Source of the DNA: Pirellulaceae bacterium
Lineage (GTDB): Bacteria > Planctomycetota > Planctomycetia > Pirellulales > Pirellulaceae
Direction of reading: 5' to 3'
Assembly (NCBI GenBank): GCA_030744095.1
Contig: JASLRF010000045.1
Span: forward strand, 1-5,148
Length of the DNA: 5,148 bases
Each line of letters opens with the position of its first letter. The stretch's first letter is position 1. The position numbers were made by a program, and so were the translations under genes. The notes beneath the pieces were generated by a model. That model did not search any database and was not told the origin of the DNA. It was given only the letters and a program-made list of their open reading frames with translations. Positions 1-5,148 of this stretch are shown here, piece by piece.

Positions 1-34
1 ATCTCTTAATGAGGGCGATCGATCTGAGGCCGTT

Positions 35-1375
35 GTGACACCGCCACCGAGTGAGCCGGCTTCAGATGCGACTACCACGGTCGGAGAGATCGGCGGTGAT
101 GATACACTCATCGAAGCCGAACAGCCCTCGATCGAATTCGCCAAGAACGTTCAGGCTGTCGTTGAATCAGTGGACACTGAAGGGGAAACAACAGACACGA
201 ATGCGTCAAGCAAAGGGCTCGACAAACAGTACTATGGCTTTGTCTGGTTGTTGACCGTCGGCGGTCTCTTCGTCATTCGCTTGCTGATCGATCCGACAAT
301 GGTGCGGCGTCCGCTGCTCGAGCCGAACCTATCGACCGGCGGCTTGGCATTCATGGGCGTTTCCTTGTTCGTCTTTCTAATGGCCAATGTAGTAAGCAGC
401 CAACCCAACGAGGCCGATTTAGCAGGCCCGAAGAGTGCGGAACACCTGCTCGTCGGCACACCCGATGATCCTGATTCGAAGGATCCATTGCGCTTGCAGG
501 GCCCAGGCAACGCGATTTTTCACTTGATTCCGACCCTGGTCACCAACCCGTCGTTATTTACAGAAGGAGGCGAACCGACGGAGATGGGCTACGTGCGAAC
601 CGCCAAGGCGATGGCGATTCTCTCGCATTTGGCAATTGTGATCGGGTTAGTCGTTATCGGGTACCGACATTTTGGCAACATTAAGACAGGCATTGGCGCG
701 GCCACGTTGTATTTGATGCTGCCGTACACCGCGCTGGAGACTGGACGTGTCTTGCATGTCTTGCCCGCCGCCTTACTGATCTGGATGGTCCTTTGCTATC
801 GGAAACCGTTGTGGGCAGGGATCTTCACAGGCTTGGCGATTGGTGTCGTCTACTACCCGCTTTTCTTATTACCGCTGTGGATCAGCTTCTATTGGAAACG
901 TGGTTTGCTTCGTTTTGGGCTTGGTGTGACGTGTACGCTTTTTGTGGTAGCACTCTCCTTGGCTCTCGTCTCCGCCGATTTCGGCGACTACCTAGGCAAC
1001 CTGCGAAGGTTGTTTGGTATCTGGGAACCAGCAATGCGACACATGCAGGGTGTCTGGGGACTGGGTTGGGATCCGCTTTACCGGTTACCGGTAATGGCAG
1101 CGTTTGTCGTGATGAGTGTCGCGTTGGCGCTTTGGCCACCCCAAAAAAACTTGGGAACGCTACTTAGTTGCTCAGCAGCTGTCATGGTGGCAAGTCAGTT
1201 TTGGCATGGATATGGTGGCGGGTTATACATCGCCTGGTACTTGCCACTTACGCTGCTGACTTTCTTACGGCCCAACCTGGAAGATCGAGTTGCCCTGACG
1301 GTGTTGGGTGAAGGTTGGCGACCTCGCTTGCGGCGAGACCTTCTCGCGCGGGCCGCCGTGTGGATTCTCCCATAG
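35..1375 (+). CDS. Polytopic membrane protein, possibly GT-C glycosyltransferase-like (5' end uncertain)
   Basis: The product has 446 residues if the GTG at 35 is the start. A GAGG at 26-29 lies five bases before it and could serve as ribosome binding site. However, the frame has no stop back to position 2, so the gene may begin left of the window. Residues 1-65 are acidic, rich in Thr, Ser and Glu, and probably disordered and cytoplasmic. About ten hydrophobic segments follow, near residues 67-86, 102-121, 189-209, 217-233, 239-255, 258-286 (long, perhaps two), 289-312, 351-367, 373-390 and 393-411. A roughly 70-residue polar loop (120-188) separates the second and third. The segment near 257-288 (KPLWAGIFTGLAIG, then YYPLFLLPLW) recalls the pattern of GT-C/DUF2029-type mannosyltransferases, but no catalytic acidic motif can be assigned, so this is a weak inference. 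The tail (412-446) is basic. It would sit in the inner membrane. That the gene is real is clear; its function is not known. Confidence 0.85.
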   Translation: MTPPPSEPASDATTTVGEIGGDDTLIEAEQPSIEFAKNVQAVVESVDTEGETTDTNASSKGLDKQYYGFVWLLTVGGLFVIRLLIDPTMVRRPLLEPNLSTGGLAFMGVSLFVFLMANVVSSQPNEADLAGPKSAEHLLVGTPDDPDSKDPLRLQGPGNAIFHLIPTLVTNPSLFTEGGEPTEMGYVRTAKAMAILSHLAIVIGLVVIGYRHFGNIKTGIGAATLYLMLPYTALETGRVLHVLPAALLIWMVLCYRKPLWAGIFTGLAIGVVYYPLFLLPLWISFYWKRGLLRFGLGVTCTLFVVALSLALVSADFGDYLGNLRRLFGIWEPAMRHMQGVWGLGWDPLYRLPVMAAFVVMSVALALWPPQKNLGTLLSCSAAVMVASQFWHGYGGGLYIAWYLPLTLLTFLRPNLEDRVALTVLGEGWRPRLRRDLLARAAVWILP

Positions 1376-1450
1376 GACGATCGTCAATCAGCAGTTCGAA
1401 AGTGCCGGTTGGTCGGGTCGCGTCGACTCTTTGGCCCGCAATGGACTGCT

Positions 1451-1478
1451 CCGACTCGCAACAGTCGGTGGTCTTTTT
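1451..1478 (+). terminator. Possible intrinsic terminator of the membrane-protein gene
   Basis: CCGACT (1451-1456) and AGTCGG (1463-1468) form a perfect six-base stem with a six-base loop, 75 bases after the stop codon. A run of five T (1474-1478) follows after a five-base gap. The stem is short and the T-run is offset, so it would be a weak terminator. A competing stem, GACTG (1444-1448) with CAGTC (1462-1466), overlaps it. Confidence 0.35.
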
Positions 1479-1680
1479 GCATCAAAACGAGACACGGATC
1501 GCCGCCGACGGGGTAGAAAACGTCGTCACGCCAAGTTTCGTAAGTCCCGTCGTTCTATCTGCTTGCGTCGTGCCCACCGAACGCAGGTCAACCACTTTCC
1601 CAAATTCGGCACGACCGCTGCACATCATCTCGTGTTGACCGTCGTGATTGGCTCGTCGTTGGCAGAACATTTTGAAGCGA

Positions 1681-1686
1681 GAGGGG
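1681..1686 (+). promoter_or_regulatory. Ribosome binding site that selects the ATG at 1694
   Basis: GAGGGG at 1681-1686 lies seven bases before the ATG at 1694. It lies only one base before the in-frame ATG at 1688, which is too close. The spacing favours 1694 as the start, giving a protein that begins MTIKTQT rather than MAMTIKT. Confidence 0.6.
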
Positions 1687-1693
1687 AATGGCG

Positions 1694-2149
1694 ATGACTA
1701 TCAAAACCCAAACGGTGAAGCGGCCCAACGGATGCATTGAAGTCATGCGTGTCCTGTCGGCGACGAGCCTAACCGAATGGTCTGACCAAGACCCGCTGGC
1801 TTATGAAAAAAGCATCCTCTGGCTCAAGAACATCGATGCGGTTCGTTTTGTCCGCACGGTCGAAGTCCGTTGTGCCCGCAGTCGGCGCGGAGCATTGAAC
1901 TTGAGTACTGGAGAACGTGTGATCGGATATGCGAAGCTCACGTCGAATGCACCGCGCGATCCCAAGACCGACTGCTACACGCGGCGTCTCTTTTACCTGA
2001 AGCCCTCCGACACGGGCGAACAGCCAGGTGTCCCGCCAGACGCTGTTGACCCGCGCACGATTCTGCCTGGAGTACGCGGCGAGACACCTATCATGCCGGT
2101 GGGTCCTCTGGGCCATACCGCCCACGATACTCTTCAGCCGGGTATTTGA
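1694..2149 (+). CDS. Small protein of unknown function
   Basis: The gene encodes 151 residues from the ATG at 1694 (153 from the ATG at 1688). I do not recognise the family. It is soluble, with no signal peptide or membrane segment. Residues 1-112 look like an ordinary folded domain: a beta-rich start (MTIKTQTVKRPNGCIEVMRV), a mixed middle with WLKNIDAVRFVRTVEVRC, and a segment ending TDCYTRRLFYLKP. Four cysteines are spread through it without a clear metal-binding spacing. The last ~40 residues are rich in Pro and Gly, and the final 59 bases lie antisense to the end of the mazG-like gene, so the C-terminus is probably an unstructured tail. The good ribosome binding site, codon use that favours G or C in third positions, and the poor composition of the opposing minus-strand frame (1769-2194) support it as real. 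It may be cotranscribed with the upstream membrane protein only if the hairpin at 1451 is read through. Confidence 0.65.
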   Translation: MTIKTQTVKRPNGCIEVMRVLSATSLTEWSDQDPLAYEKSILWLKNIDAVRFVRTVEVRCARSRRGALNLSTGERVIGYAKLTSNAPRDPKTDCYTRRLFYLKPSDTGEQPGVPPDAVDPRTILPGVRGETPIMPVGPLGHTAHDTLQPGI

Positions 2150-2459
2150 TCTTGTTCTTGTCCATCTTCTCCTGCATGGCCGTACTGACGTCAATGTTCA
2201 GTTCATTGGCAATGGCCAGGGCATAGCACAAGACGTCAGCCAATTCTTCGGCGACGGCCCGCAGTTTCTCTGGGTCGTCGCCGATCACGCGCGACGCATC
2301 TTCAGAAATCCACTGGAAGTGCTCCATCAATTCGGCGGCTTCAATCGCCAGGGCCATCGTCAGGTTCTTGGGCGAATGAAATTTCTGCCAATCACGCGCG
2401 TCGACGAACCGACGAACCATGTCTCGTAGCTCGGCGATCTTCGTGGTCGTATCCGCCAT
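2091..2459 (-). CDS. MazG-like nucleotide pyrophosphohydrolase (dCTPase-like)
   Basis: This is a 122-residue, single-domain all-alpha NTP pyrophosphohydrolase of the MazG-like / DCTPP1 (RS21-C6) type, which cleaves (d)NTPs to monophosphate and pyrophosphate in the cytoplasm and clears non-canonical or excess dNTPs. The signature is plain: RDWQKFHSPKNL at residues 22-33, EAAEL with E40 and E43, FQW at 48-50, and EELADVLCY with E72 and D75. Together these give the E-x2-E ... E-x2-D magnesium site. Length matches the short single-domain branch, not the roughly 260-residue two-domain E. coli MazG. The ATG at 2459 has no Shine-Dalgarno upstream, but the N-terminal helix needs about these residues, so the start is reasonable. 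The 3' end overlaps the convergent gene at 1694-2149 by 59 bases. No mazE/mazF toxin-antitoxin genes lie nearby. Preferred substrate cannot be read from sequence; dCTP is the family-based guess. Confidence 0.93.
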   Translation of the reverse strand: MADTTTKIAELRDMVRRFVDARDWQKFHSPKNLTMALAIEAAELMEHFQWISEDASRVIGDDPEKLRAVAEELADVLCYALAIANELNIDVSTAMQEKMDKNKIKYPAEEYRGRYGPEDPPA

Positions 2460-2483
2460 TTGAGTTGACTCTTGCTAGTGCGT

Positions 2484-2511
2484 GTCGCGCGGACATAAAC
2501 GTCCGCGTCAC
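2484..2511. repeat. Inverted repeat upstream of the mazG-like gene
   Basis: CGCGGAC (2488-2494) and GTCCGCG (2501-2507) are perfect seven-base arms around a six-base loop (ATAAAC). Pairing resumes weakly outside (G2487/T2508, T2485/A2510, G2484/C2511). No T-run follows on either strand, so it is not a typical intrinsic terminator. It lies about 30-50 bases before the mazG-like start codon, where it could be an operator dyad or an RNA hairpin in the leader. Confidence 0.55.
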
Positions 2512-2566
2512 TTTGTTTCACAGGTCCAAACGGCGAAGAAGCCGCTGTGGTTAATCCGCATACGCT

Positions 2567-2789
2567 CTAAAGGGGTGAATTGGCCTGATGGATCGAGTGG
2601 GCCAGCGTCGCGAACCGGTCTCGAATCGCAATGGCCCGCTCAATGTGCCTTCGTCGCATGTTCCGTTAACTTAGCCAAACTGGCAGCAGTGTCGATCACC
2701 CCTAAATCCCGGTTGTTGTCGGAGCGTTGTGCGTCTTCTAACGGTTTTGACCATTCTTCCACGAGAGGCGGGCTTTCGCCATGGTTCAC
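2567..2789 (-). pseudogene. Possible small gene broken by a +1 frameshift, upstream of mazG-like gene
   Basis: On the minus strand a GTG at 2789 opens a 49-residue frame ending in TGA at 2642-2640. It begins VNHGESPPLVEEW and ends SLAKLTEHATKAH. The +1 frame takes over at that point and runs to a TAG at 2569-2567, reading IERAIAIRDRFATL and then AHSIHQANSPL. Skipping one base at the CAT-TGA junction joins the two into a hydrophilic, helix-forming protein of about 73 residues. Both halves have the balanced charge and Ala/Leu content of real protein, unlike the plus-strand reading. The second half could also start on its own at the ATG at 2659, overlapping the first by 20 bases. No ribosome binding site is visible for either. 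It may be a decayed gene, a pair of small overlapping genes, or chance; there is no recognised family. Confidence 0.28.
2595..2641. repeat. Hairpin with ten-base stem
   Basis: GAGTGGGCCA (2595-2604) pairs with TGGCCCGCTC (2632-2641) over ten bases with one G-T pair. The interior can pair further through GCGA (2610-2613) and TCGC (2626-2629). No T-run follows. It overlaps the coding-like minus-strand frames at 2567-2789, so some of the symmetry may be incidental. Confidence 0.4.
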
Positions 2790-2884
2790 AACCTAAGCTT
2801 GTAGTGCCTGGTGAGTAATGAAGTTGCCGGTTGGAATTGAATGCTGGTGCCATCACGAGTAGACCACATCGGCACCAATCCCGT

Positions 2885-2890
2885 AAGGAG
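2885..2890 (+). promoter_or_regulatory. Ribosome binding site of the deacetylase gene
   Basis: AAGGAG at 2885-2890 lies five bases before the ATG at 2896. It is the strongest Shine-Dalgarno match in the window and fixes this start. Confidence 0.75.
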
Positions 2891-2895
2891 CGACG

Positions 2896-3939
2896 ATGAT
2901 CAAGCAGAGCTTTTTTCGCGTCGCGCGAAGTCGTGCGTTTTCGACGTTGGTAAGGCTGCTGGAAAAACTGGAACATCAACACAATATGCTCCGCGTGCTG
3001 ACCTACCATCGTGTCGATTATCCCGATGCACGACCGGATCTTGACCCAAACCTGATCAGCGCGACTCCCGAGACTTTTGCTCGCCAGATGGAGCACCTTG
3101 CCGAACATTATGTTGTCATGACAATCGATCAGGTGGTGCAAGCGGTGCGCGACAAGTCGACACTGCCACCGCGGAGTGTGCTCGTCACATTTGACGACGC
3201 ATACTACGACTTTGCCGAACATGCCTGGCCAACGCTGAAACGGCTGGGCTTACCCGCGGTGATGTTCGTCCCCACTGCTTTCCCCGGCCAGGCGCGGCAG
3301 TTTTGGTGGGACACCGTATACGAAGCACTTCACAAATGCAAAGTGGATCGGGACCTGGGCAAGTGTGGCATCGAAGTCCTTCGGAACGAAAGTCGAGCAC
3401 AAACGTATCGGCGTATCGTTTGCGAACTGAAACTGCTGCCCCACGACGAAGTCCTCGCGCGCGTCGCCGAGTTGTCCCGGCAATGCGAATTGTCTCCAAT
3501 CGTCAGTCCGGTCATGGCGTGGGGTGAATTGAAGAACCTGGCCGGCCAGGGACTGGCACTTGGTGCCCATACACAGACGCACCCGTTGTTGAACCGAGTA
3601 CCACTGGAATCAGCTGTTGAAGAGGCGATTGGGTCGTTACAAGAACTGCAATCACACGTCGGCGATGTCGCTCCAGTTTTCGCCTATCCAGGCGGAGCAT
3701 TCAGCGATGAGGTGGTCCAACATCTGCGAGACCATTTCGAACTGGCGTTTACGACGTGCCGCGGAATCAACGACATGGGTCGGGCGGATGCGTTACGCCT
3801 GAGGAGAATCAACGTCAGTCACCACACACCAGATTCCCTGGTTCGTGCCCAGATGTTAGCCGGAGTTCGCCACTTTAATCACCGCTGGCCACTTGACAGT
3901 TCCAATTCGTGCCCGAACCCGGGAAGTTGCTGCTGTTGA
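2896..3939 (+). CDS. Polysaccharide deacetylase (NodB homology domain, CE4 family)
   Basis: This 347-residue protein should remove acetyl groups from N-acetylated amino sugars in a surface or cell-wall polysaccharide, using a divalent metal. An opening TYHRV motif (36-40) leads into the NodB fold. Motif 1 is TFDDAYYDF (98-106), giving catalytic-base and metal Asp 100 and 101; Ala 102 replaces the usual Gly, as is common in the FDDAYxDF branch. An insert of roughly 70 residues with FWWD (136-139) precedes AWGELKNL (208-215). Motif 2 is HTQTHP (225-230), giving the two metal His. Motif 3 is AYPGG (263-267), and RLRRI (301-305) closes the fold. The N-terminus is amphipathic and basic with no clear signal peptide, so the protein may be cytoplasmic or peripheral to the membrane. 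The last 61 bases overlap the convergent gene, and the Cys-rich end (SCCC) is probably a by-product of reading antisense through it. The membrane protein at 35-1375 may belong to related envelope work, but no polysaccharide gene cluster is visible. Confidence 0.93.
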   Translation: MIKQSFFRVARSRAFSTLVRLLEKLEHQHNMLRVLTYHRVDYPDARPDLDPNLISATPETFARQMEHLAEHYVVMTIDQVVQAVRDKSTLPPRSVLVTFDDAYYDFAEHAWPTLKRLGLPAVMFVPTAFPGQARQFWWDTVYEALHKCKVDRDLGKCGIEVLRNESRAQTYRRIVCELKLLPHDEVLARVAELSRQCELSPIVSPVMAWGELKNLAGQGLALGAHTQTHPLLNRVPLESAVEEAIGSLQELQSHVGDVAPVFAYPGGAFSDEVVQHLRDHFELAFTTCRGINDMGRADALRLRRINVSHHTPDSLVRAQMLAGVRHFNHRWPLDSSNSCPNPGSCCC

Positions 3940-4901
3940 GGAGGATGAAGCTGTTCCCAGAGGCGAGTCCGATAGCCTTCCACCAGACAGACCATCATTT
4001 CCAGGATCAAAATGTCAGCGCGGTTCATCACGTGGCGTGCGCTGCGATGGCCCAATCCCTCGATCATTTCGCCCAATACGTCCAGATGCAGCAACACCGC
4101 TTGATGGGCGGTCACCTGCGATGAAGCCAGCAATTCGACAAGCTGCCTCATTTCTTCGGCCAGGTTTCCAGACCCCATGATGACGTAGGTGCGAAGAAGT
4201 TCTCGGTACCGCCCAGACAATGATTCGGCCAGTGGCTTGGGAAGCGGGACGGCGCGGGCGAGCGGGTTCACTTGAGAGCGATCGTTCATCACGTCGTCAC
4301 CACTTTCCACAGGTACCGTACCCAACAGCATGGCCCGTTGTTGGGCCAACAGACGCTTGGCTTCGTCATGTTCGAGTTTTTTACGGTGACTTTCGGCCTG
4401 CTGCAACCGTCGATTCTCCGCCACCAGACGTCGCCGCTCGATCGCCCGCGACACTGTCCAGATCAGCGAACGGACCGTCGTCGTGTTGATGCAAACGTAG
4501 GCATCCGCACCAGCTTCGAAACAGAGCGCTGACATTTCTTGTTCGCTGAGCGTGCCGAGCACCACCACCGGTTGTTCCTCACCGCCACCGGCGCGTAGCC
4601 CGTCGAGCAGTTCCAGCGAATCCAGGTCCGGCTCCTCGTGACTGATCAACACGGCGTCGAAAGACTCTTCGCGCAAGCAAGCCAATCCGTCGGCCATCCC
4701 CACGGATTCTTCCAACAGAACTTCCGTGGCGCTATCTGCCGCCAGCGCGTCTGCCAACCAACCACCAGTACGCTGCGTGCCCGCCACAAACAATGTCCGC
4801 ATCCGCGGGGGCAAGAAACCCCATGGTGTTGTGGGAAACTGATTGTCCGAAGCTTCGACGACAGTTGCCATGATCCATCCATCTGCTAGCACGTGGCGCA
4901 T
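3879..4901 (-). CDS. KaiA-like regulator: pseudo-receiver, coiled coil, KaiA/RsbU-type helical domain
   Basis: Residues 34-155 of the 340 follow the alternating strand/helix pattern of a response-regulator receiver (RTLFVAGT, FDAVLISHEEPDLDSLELL, PVVVLGTL, GADAYV). The key residues are gone: the acidic pair is A40-G41, the phosphoacceptor Asp is S87, the switch Thr position is G116 and the Lys is I138. It is therefore a pseudo-receiver that should not be phosphorylated in the normal way. Residues 152-193 are a charged coiled coil. Residues 224-316 form a helical domain with RYRELLRTY (231-239), GNLAEEM, a central LHLDVL with H272, and LEMMVCLVEGYR; this pattern matches, as I recall them, the KaiA C-terminal and RsbU N-terminal domains. 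The tail is Gln/Pro-rich. The order pseudo-receiver, linker, helical dimer domain is that of KaiA (about 284 residues). It is probably a cytoplasmic dimer acting by protein contact. Starts at 4901, 4871 (M11) or 4802 (M34) are all possible; none has a strong ribosome binding site. No kaiB/kaiC or rsbT is in view. Confidence 0.88.
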   Translation of the reverse strand: MRHVLADGWIMATVVEASDNQFPTTPWGFLPPRMRTLFVAGTQRTGGWLADALAADSATEVLLEESVGMADGLACLREESFDAVLISHEEPDLDSLELLDGLRAGGGEEQPVVVLGTLSEQEMSALCFEAGADAYVCINTTTVRSLIWTVSRAIERRRLVAENRRLQQAESHRKKLEHDEAKRLLAQQRAMLLGTVPVESGDDVMNDRSQVNPLARAVPLPKPLAESLSGRYRELLRTYVIMGSGNLAEEMRQLVELLASSQVTAHQAVLLHLDVLGEMIEGLGHRSARHVMNRADILILEMMVCLVEGYRTRLWEQLHPPQQQQLPGFGHELELSSGQR

Positions 4902-5148
4902 TGCCCAATTCGGCGAGCACCTTGTACTAGAGTGGGTCGAACGGCGTCAACGCCAACCGTAGCCTGTGGAGACGAGGCTGCCGTGCACGGTAGCCGTCGT
5001 AAGATGTACTCTAGGCTGCGCCAAAGTTAGTATTGCTTGAGCTGGGCGATCGTTCGGGTTTTGTTTACGCTTTTCTATTCCGACAGGGCGATGCGACGCT
5101 GAGATTGTACGCTCGACGGAAGGTTGTCTTGGCACCAATTGACGACAT
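4902..5148. other. Upstream region of the KaiA-like gene, rich in dyad symmetry
   Basis: These 247 bases reach the right edge. No confident gene is present; a 63-codon minus-strand frame (4947-5138) has no supporting signal. The part nearest the KaiA-like gene contains several inverted repeats between 4927 and 5014. At the far right, GGAAGG (5118-5123) lies five bases before a TTG at 5129 whose frame (TTG GCA CCA ATT GAC GAC) is open to the edge. A rightward gene might start there, which would make this a divergent promoter region, but the visible coding part is too short to judge. Confidence 0.45.
4971..4998. repeat. Inverted repeat centred on CCGTGCACGG
   Basis: CCGTGCACGG (4981-4990) is a perfect ten-base palindrome. 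Flanking GCTG (4977-4980) and TAGC (4991-4994) extend it with one G-T pair, and GACG (4971-4974) with CGTC (4995-4998) extends it again after a two-base bulge. It lies about 70 bases before the first possible start of the KaiA-like gene. It could be an operator for a dimeric repressor or activator, or an RNA hairpin in the leader. Confidence 0.5.

Follow-up and report, generated by a model that had tools for sequence, protein, structure and literature searches.

The cyanobacterial clock protein KaiA is known to partner KaiC. Outside the cyanobacteria, KaiA3 has been reported in five genera (PMC11372060) and a kaiABC operon in a Planctomycetaceae assembly (PMC8113500). Here, we analyse a stretch of 5,148 nucleotides (the window) from Pirellulaceae bacterium (Planctomycetota; GenBank assembly GCA_030744095.1, contig JASLRF010000045.1, positions 1 to 5,148, forward strand). 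In particular, we focus on an open reading frame (ORF) of 340 amino acids on its minus strand (3879-4901), the gene of a KaiA-superfamily pseudo-receiver regulator. The planctomycete family to which it belongs is real and part of the KaiA superfamily, and its closest published design is KaiA3. A literature search, partial and thin on subscription journals, found no published description of this family.

The kinship to KaiA is carried by the C-terminal domain. AlphaFold2 predicts four helices (residues 222-242, 248-260, 265-281 and 288-318), and profile search, AlphaFold2, Foldseek and VIA support a KaiA-type four-helix domain at residues 222-318 (3948-4238, minus strand). When a profile of 62 such C-domains was searched against the PDB, KaiA chains came top (E 4e-5 to 1e-3), the best non-KaiA match having an E of 0.12 and RsbU one of 0.17. 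Against the family profile, two KaiA C-domains scored 26.5 and 22.4 bits, whereas the top score among 510 reversed or shuffled decoys was 9.4. Modelled alone, the C-domain has a pLDDT (AlphaFold2's own confidence score) of 91, and KaiA takes Foldseek ranks 1-12 and VIA ranks 1-7. Across the 62 C-domains, Pfam at E<=1 finds KaiA in 51, RsbU_N in 46 and the next family in four; judged on sequence, these family-level KaiA and RsbU_N matches exceed chance. The window protein alone stays below the cut-offs for both KaiA (12.9 bits vs 22.2) and RsbU_N (13.7 vs 25.5). Its isolated C-domain scores 16.2 bits with PF07688 (KaiA), the gathering score of 22.2 not being reached, and a precomputed PF07688 annotation is present on three of the best 120 relatives (P0077, P0094 and P0106).

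The motifs RYRELLRTY, GNL, LHLDVL and EMMVCLVEGYR, in whose spacing the first-pass annotation had recognized a KaiA C-terminus, are all present in the translation. A test with HMMER, AlphaFold2, Foldseek and VIA for placement in an unrelated family, or for a fold that does not superpose, left the KaiA-type assignment unrefuted. We regard a KaiA-type fold and architecture of the family as very probable. In a C-domain tree the family forms one group (support 79/90); the placement of KaiA was not resolved, branches were long and the tree was not used. The fold comparison also bears on a different reading, a stressosome-type sensor, where the C-domain would act like the globin-like N-terminal domain of RsbR and the KaiA match would reflect a common helix arrangement. 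With the C-domain model, VIA does list globins and phycobiliproteins after KaiA and RsbR. However, RsbR is only Foldseek rank 35 and is absent from the 14 PDB profile matches at E<=10, and the KaiA Pfam matches and decoy scores also speak against such a sensor, which we hold to be very improbable.

Residue by residue, the comparison with KaiA covered 27 conserved positions taken from PMC8113500, its listed variants being allowed. Y198 and H237 are retained in 62/62 C-domains, Y205 in 55, H271 in 49, L272 (as L or M) in 60, E274 in 44, Y276 in 59 and R277 in 52. M241 is kept in 11/62, while D242 is D or E in 54/62 but Gly in the window protein. The lost positions are F224, D260, Y261 and R262 (each 0/62), E251 (1/62) and D267 (2/62). 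Positions 260-262 are replaced by R-A-D (59 to 61 of 62), within a near-invariant family motif, GLGxRSxRHVMxRAD, which aligns with KaiA about 247-262. This family signature occupies the last loop and the start of the last helix (residues 282-296; 4014-4058, minus strand, from the alignment). According to PMC4844972, KaiA residues 245, 249, 257 and 259 are tied to the KaiC tail, and the mutants of that study gave poor support to published complex structures. The motif spans the equivalents of 249, 257 and 259 and starts just past 245. From the counts over the 62 C-domains, several dimer-side residues thus look KaiA-like, and the docking segment looks conserved but different.

At the other end of the protein, the full-length AlphaFold2 model (74 sequences; pLDDT 85.9) has a receiver-type beta/alpha fold at residues 31-137 (4491-4811, minus strand). 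In structural comparison its fold matches receivers, which are the only entries in its VIA list, and Pfam Response_reg matches the window protein at 17.1 bits, below the 30.2 cut-off. The phospho-Asp position is occupied by Ser87 (codon 4641-4643, minus strand), and Asp is found there in none of 74 aligned sequences and in none of 93 in a wider alignment (window included), so ordinary aspartate phosphorylation at position 87 is set aside on alignment grounds. Lys at position 139 occurs in 2/93 sequences and, by alignment, the conserved Asp, acidic pair and Lys of a phosphorylatable response regulator are not found as a set. The receiver-like N-domain without phosphorylation residues described in the first-pass annotation is thus borne out. 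Helix alpha-4 is retained in the model (residues 120-129, between strands 112-116 and 134-137). After the receiver's last strand comes the charged linker that had also been described, a single helix at residues 143-193 (4323-4475, minus strand) with 19 of 51 residues charged.

Of 7999 candidates scored in the homologue search with the window protein, 1956 reached E<=0.001; the listing covers the best 120, and some of the weaker matches may be plain receivers. Among the matches listed, the closest relative has 98% identity and is annotated ‘response regulator’ (Pirellulaceae bacterium), and the nearest named records are Pirellulaceae; with KaiA put first by profile, Foldseek and VIA, the idea of a KaiA-type architecture in a planctomycete is supported. 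Conservation of Met11 (at least 90% of 74 aligned sequences) makes 4871 the probable start of translation, which gives 330 amino acids. Source names of database relatives (OmpR or NarL/FixJ family response regulator) would suggest a DNA-binding transcription factor. However, Pfam finds no DNA-binding domain in the protein, the NCBIfam response-regulator matches lie far below their cut-offs, on receiver and linker, and the C-domain is a KaiA-type bundle. We give a transcription factor hardly any credence.

It had been suggested that the protein might tune a KaiC-like ATPase, as a candidate for a timing system. Partner genes were sought in the genomes of relatives rather than the window's own, and these searches scored only part of the initial candidates, so that absence counts are upper bounds. 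In a sample of 196 genomes across one planctomycete order, 98 carry the family and 29 a KaiC-type ATPase (E<=1e-25): 21 have both, 77 the family only, eight KaiC only and 90 neither. KaiC is thus present in 21/98 family-positive vs 8/98 family-negative genomes (Fisher p 0.015, uncorrected for kinship or completeness). KaiB was found in 1/19 host genomes (G003) and not in the other 18. The PF06745 cut-off was passed in 19/19 hosts because this profile also matches other RecA-like ATPases; three of them (G002, G003 and G011) contain strong double-domain frames of >500 amino acids, and a 357-aa frame of G012 carries a single strong domain. At the level of loci (the window and 80 others; at least 500 bp of downstream sequence in 77, at least 1.5 kb of upstream sequence in 67), kaiB and kaiC were found in 0/81 by tblastn at E<=1e-6, and Pfam found neither in the window. 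Because 77/98 family-positive genomes showed no KaiC at E<=1e-25, KaiC does not appear to be a required partner, although a weak association exists, and we think it likely that the family is independent of KaiC in most hosts. The architecture proposed at first is supported; the link to a KaiC clock and the timing reading are not supported for most hosts.

A true KaiA could nevertheless work in trans with a distant kaiBC, stimulating the autophosphorylation of KaiC as part of a planctomycete timer. KaiA is indeed the closest known protein by fold and sequence, KaiC is commoner in family-positive genomes, and at six KaiC loci of such genomes (L186 and L217-L221, with kaiB present in L186, L217, L218 and L219) no KaiA-type gene was found beside kaiC. 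On the other hand, most family-positive genomes show no KaiC and nearly all tested hosts no KaiB, four KaiA residues (F224, D260, Y261 and R262) are missing throughout, and in other planctomycetes (L207, L208, L209 and L214) kaiB-kaiC is immediately preceded by a KaiA-type gene of its own, separate from this family. In our judgement, a true KaiA is unlikely.

In a search for divergent members, the A2 profile matches 23 of 392 genomes of the phylum, 20 of them strongly. Of the three weak matches, two (L178/L207 and L179/L208) combine a receiver with a KaiA-type domain and are encoded immediately upstream of kaiB and then kaiC (kaiB of L178 by Pfam PF07689, 5e-25), and the third (L180) adjoins CheB/CheR-like genes, as read from the sequence. 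Two further rows of a KaiA-type gene, kaiB and kaiC occur at L209 and L214. In Planctomycetota, KaiA-type domains thus occur in the company of KaiBC as well as without it. The KaiA3-like rows lie at L207 1866-4638, L208 7358-10100, L209 2144-4700 and L214 2289-6139. The L208 receiver has no Asp, the KaiA-type domain of L214 ends a 647-aa protein, and second KaiB-like proteins are encoded near kaiC (L214 6243-6665; L217 6050-6870). The family profile gave L211 4.0 bits, a value inside the decoy range, and L211 was not counted as a relative on that profile; when a KaiA3-like query was searched at full length, plain receivers drowned the result (384/384 genomes).

Given that the family is mostly found in genomes without detected KaiC, it probably regulates another partner, perhaps a protein kinase. 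Kinases are the best candidate class because the next gene in a divergent clade encodes a membrane-type Ser/Thr kinase. At six divergent loci (L194, L195, L196, L202, L203 and L205) the next same-strand gene joins a hydrophobic membrane-type N-terminal half, judged by eye, to a Ser/Thr kinase domain (Pfam Pkinase 2.8e-45 and 6.4e-44 in L194 and L202, the two tested; in two frames in L196). Coordinates also place this membrane part after the family gene in G088, G257, G496 and G579, where it alone was matched. In the resulting 10 genomes, the two matched segments lie on the same strand, 248-369 bp apart. Among other divergent genomes, the kinase type lies elsewhere in G285, G171 and G310 and was not found in G106 and G276; neighbours were also inspected at L197-L199 and L201, and gene picking failed to catch the family gene at L200. 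Across the order, the membrane part occurs in 93/196 genomes, in 58/98 family-positive vs 35/98 family-negative ones at E<=1e-3 (p 0.0016). The counts are 55 vs 29 at 1e-20 (p 3e-4), 32 vs 13 at 1e-30 (p 0.002) and 7 vs 4 at 1e-36 (p 0.54), all p values being uncorrected for kinship or completeness. At the main family loci, tblastn found the membrane part in 0/81. A protein kinase partner is put forward tentatively, as possible rather than probable.

A kinase of another type is the partner in an RsbU-like scheme, in which the protein would be an adaptor recruiting an RsbT/RsbW-type GHKL switch kinase, thereby controlling a sigma factor. The RsbU_N matches to the family's C-domains favour it, as does the statement in PMC11372060 that the proposed RsbT site of RsbU matches the KaiC site of KaiA. 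In five host genomes (G001, G002, G010, G011 and G014) a STAS-like gene adjoins a HATPase_c_2 gene (by eye; Pfam for G001 only), 2/81 loci (L007 and L008) have a STAS/HATPase pair upstream of the family gene, at a distance of about 9-10 kb, and a sigma-70 gene is three genes off in five divergent loci (Pfam check for two). HATPase_c_2 proteins as such were present in 8/8 hosts tested, and because of this their co-occurrence is uninformative as evidence of a partner. A genome search for RsbU_N matched in 1/19 genomes, at the family gene itself. The phosphatase architecture of RsbU is not seen in the window protein, whose sub-cut-off RsbU_N match is C-terminal and in which Pfam finds no phosphatase domain. 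We consider an RsbU-like adaptor rather unlikely, if less so than a true KaiA. A partner-switching pair, a STAS gene then a HATPase_c_2 gene, was also observed at L187 (2481-3307), with similar pairs in several hosts.

The frequent neighbours of the main family offered no signalling partner. By tblastn, 40/81 loci (window included) have a same-strand MazG-like gene no more than 3.5 kb downstream, 37/81 a divergently oriented LarC gene no more than 3.5 kb upstream and 14/81 an ATP-grasp gene downstream, Pfam confirming LarC and ATP-grasp in one case each. These and a YfcE-like gene look like housekeeping genes. Long open frames at L182-L185, considered as fusions, looked by eye like in-frame upstream extensions with no new domains. 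In the window, the gene of the MazG-like nucleotide pyrophosphohydrolase (2091-2459, minus strand; PF12643, 2.2e-13) is separated from the KaiA-like gene by a polysaccharide deacetylase gene on the other strand (2896-3939, plus). The latter overlaps the KaiA-like gene tail to tail by 61 bases (3879-3939). A C-terminal tail, HPPRQxxLPGF (3912-3947), is conserved in the close family consensus and missing from divergent members L098-L107; it is possibly a short binding motif. The window further encodes a DUF6009 protein (1688-2149; PF19472, 2.9e-18) and a 446-aa ORF (35-1375), membrane-protein-like by eye, for which no Pfam or NCBIfam match was found at E<=1.

Altogether, the explanation we lean towards, with some reserve, is a KaiA-superfamily pseudo-receiver regulator that is uncoupled from KaiBC and docks on another ATP-using partner. 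Such a protein would form a homodimer, as KaiA does, and its pseudo-receiver would sense an input other than phosphate, either a protein or a ligand. The long helix would transmit this input to the four-helix domain, whose face with the GLGxRSxRHVMxRAD motif may bind the ATP-using, non-KaiC partner, most likely a protein kinase, and alter its activity. More speculatively, and in our view doubtful as a whole, Planctomycetota may have a KaiC-independent branch of the KaiA superfamily, in which a phosphate-blind receiver controls a KaiA-type docking domain that tunes membrane Ser/Thr kinases; KaiA would then be a general kinase-regulating module and the clock one of its uses. With a KaiA-fold family in genomes where KaiC mostly went undetected, beside same-phylum relatives that precede kaiBC, it becomes testable whether KaiA descends from kinase-docking regulators of a broader and more ancient class or whether a clock part has been re-used. 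The family also supplies a conserved pseudo-receiver.

Compared to known systems, the family combines features of several. We do not class it as KaiA, since it fell short on three tested points: gene linkage, the form of the pseudo-receiver and, for the window protein, the Pfam cut-off. Like canonical KaiA (Synechococcus elongatus), it has an Asp-less receiver-type N-domain, a linker and a four-helix C-domain with invariant Y198 and H237. Unlike the KaiA pseudo-receiver, which is described as being without alpha-4 (PMC11372060), the N-domain retains this helix in our model; moreover, DYR at 260-262 has become RAD, and KaiC goes undetected in 77/98 hosts. The N-terminal domain of RsbU (Bacillus subtilis) is described as sharing the KaiA fold (PMC11372060), and RsbU_N matches 46/62 of the family's C-domains, but in RsbU it lies N-terminally, before a phosphatase, and its profile and fold match to the family is weaker. 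The kaiBC-linked planctomycete proteins share the KaiA-type C-domain, the family profile giving 40.7, 34.6, 27.2 and 17.0 bits for L178/L207, L179/L208, L209 and L214; they differ in their linkage to kaiBC, in the Asp kept by the L178 receiver and in a small insertion at the first helix of L178 and L179. Closest is KaiA3 (Sll0485, Synechocystis), likewise a receiver joined to a KaiA-type C-domain. Yet most KaiA3 proteins still have the phospho-Asp, and KaiA3 shows linkage to kaiB3 (PMC11372060), whereas the family has Asp in 0/93 sequences (Ser87 in the window) and kaiB or kaiC in 0/81 loci.
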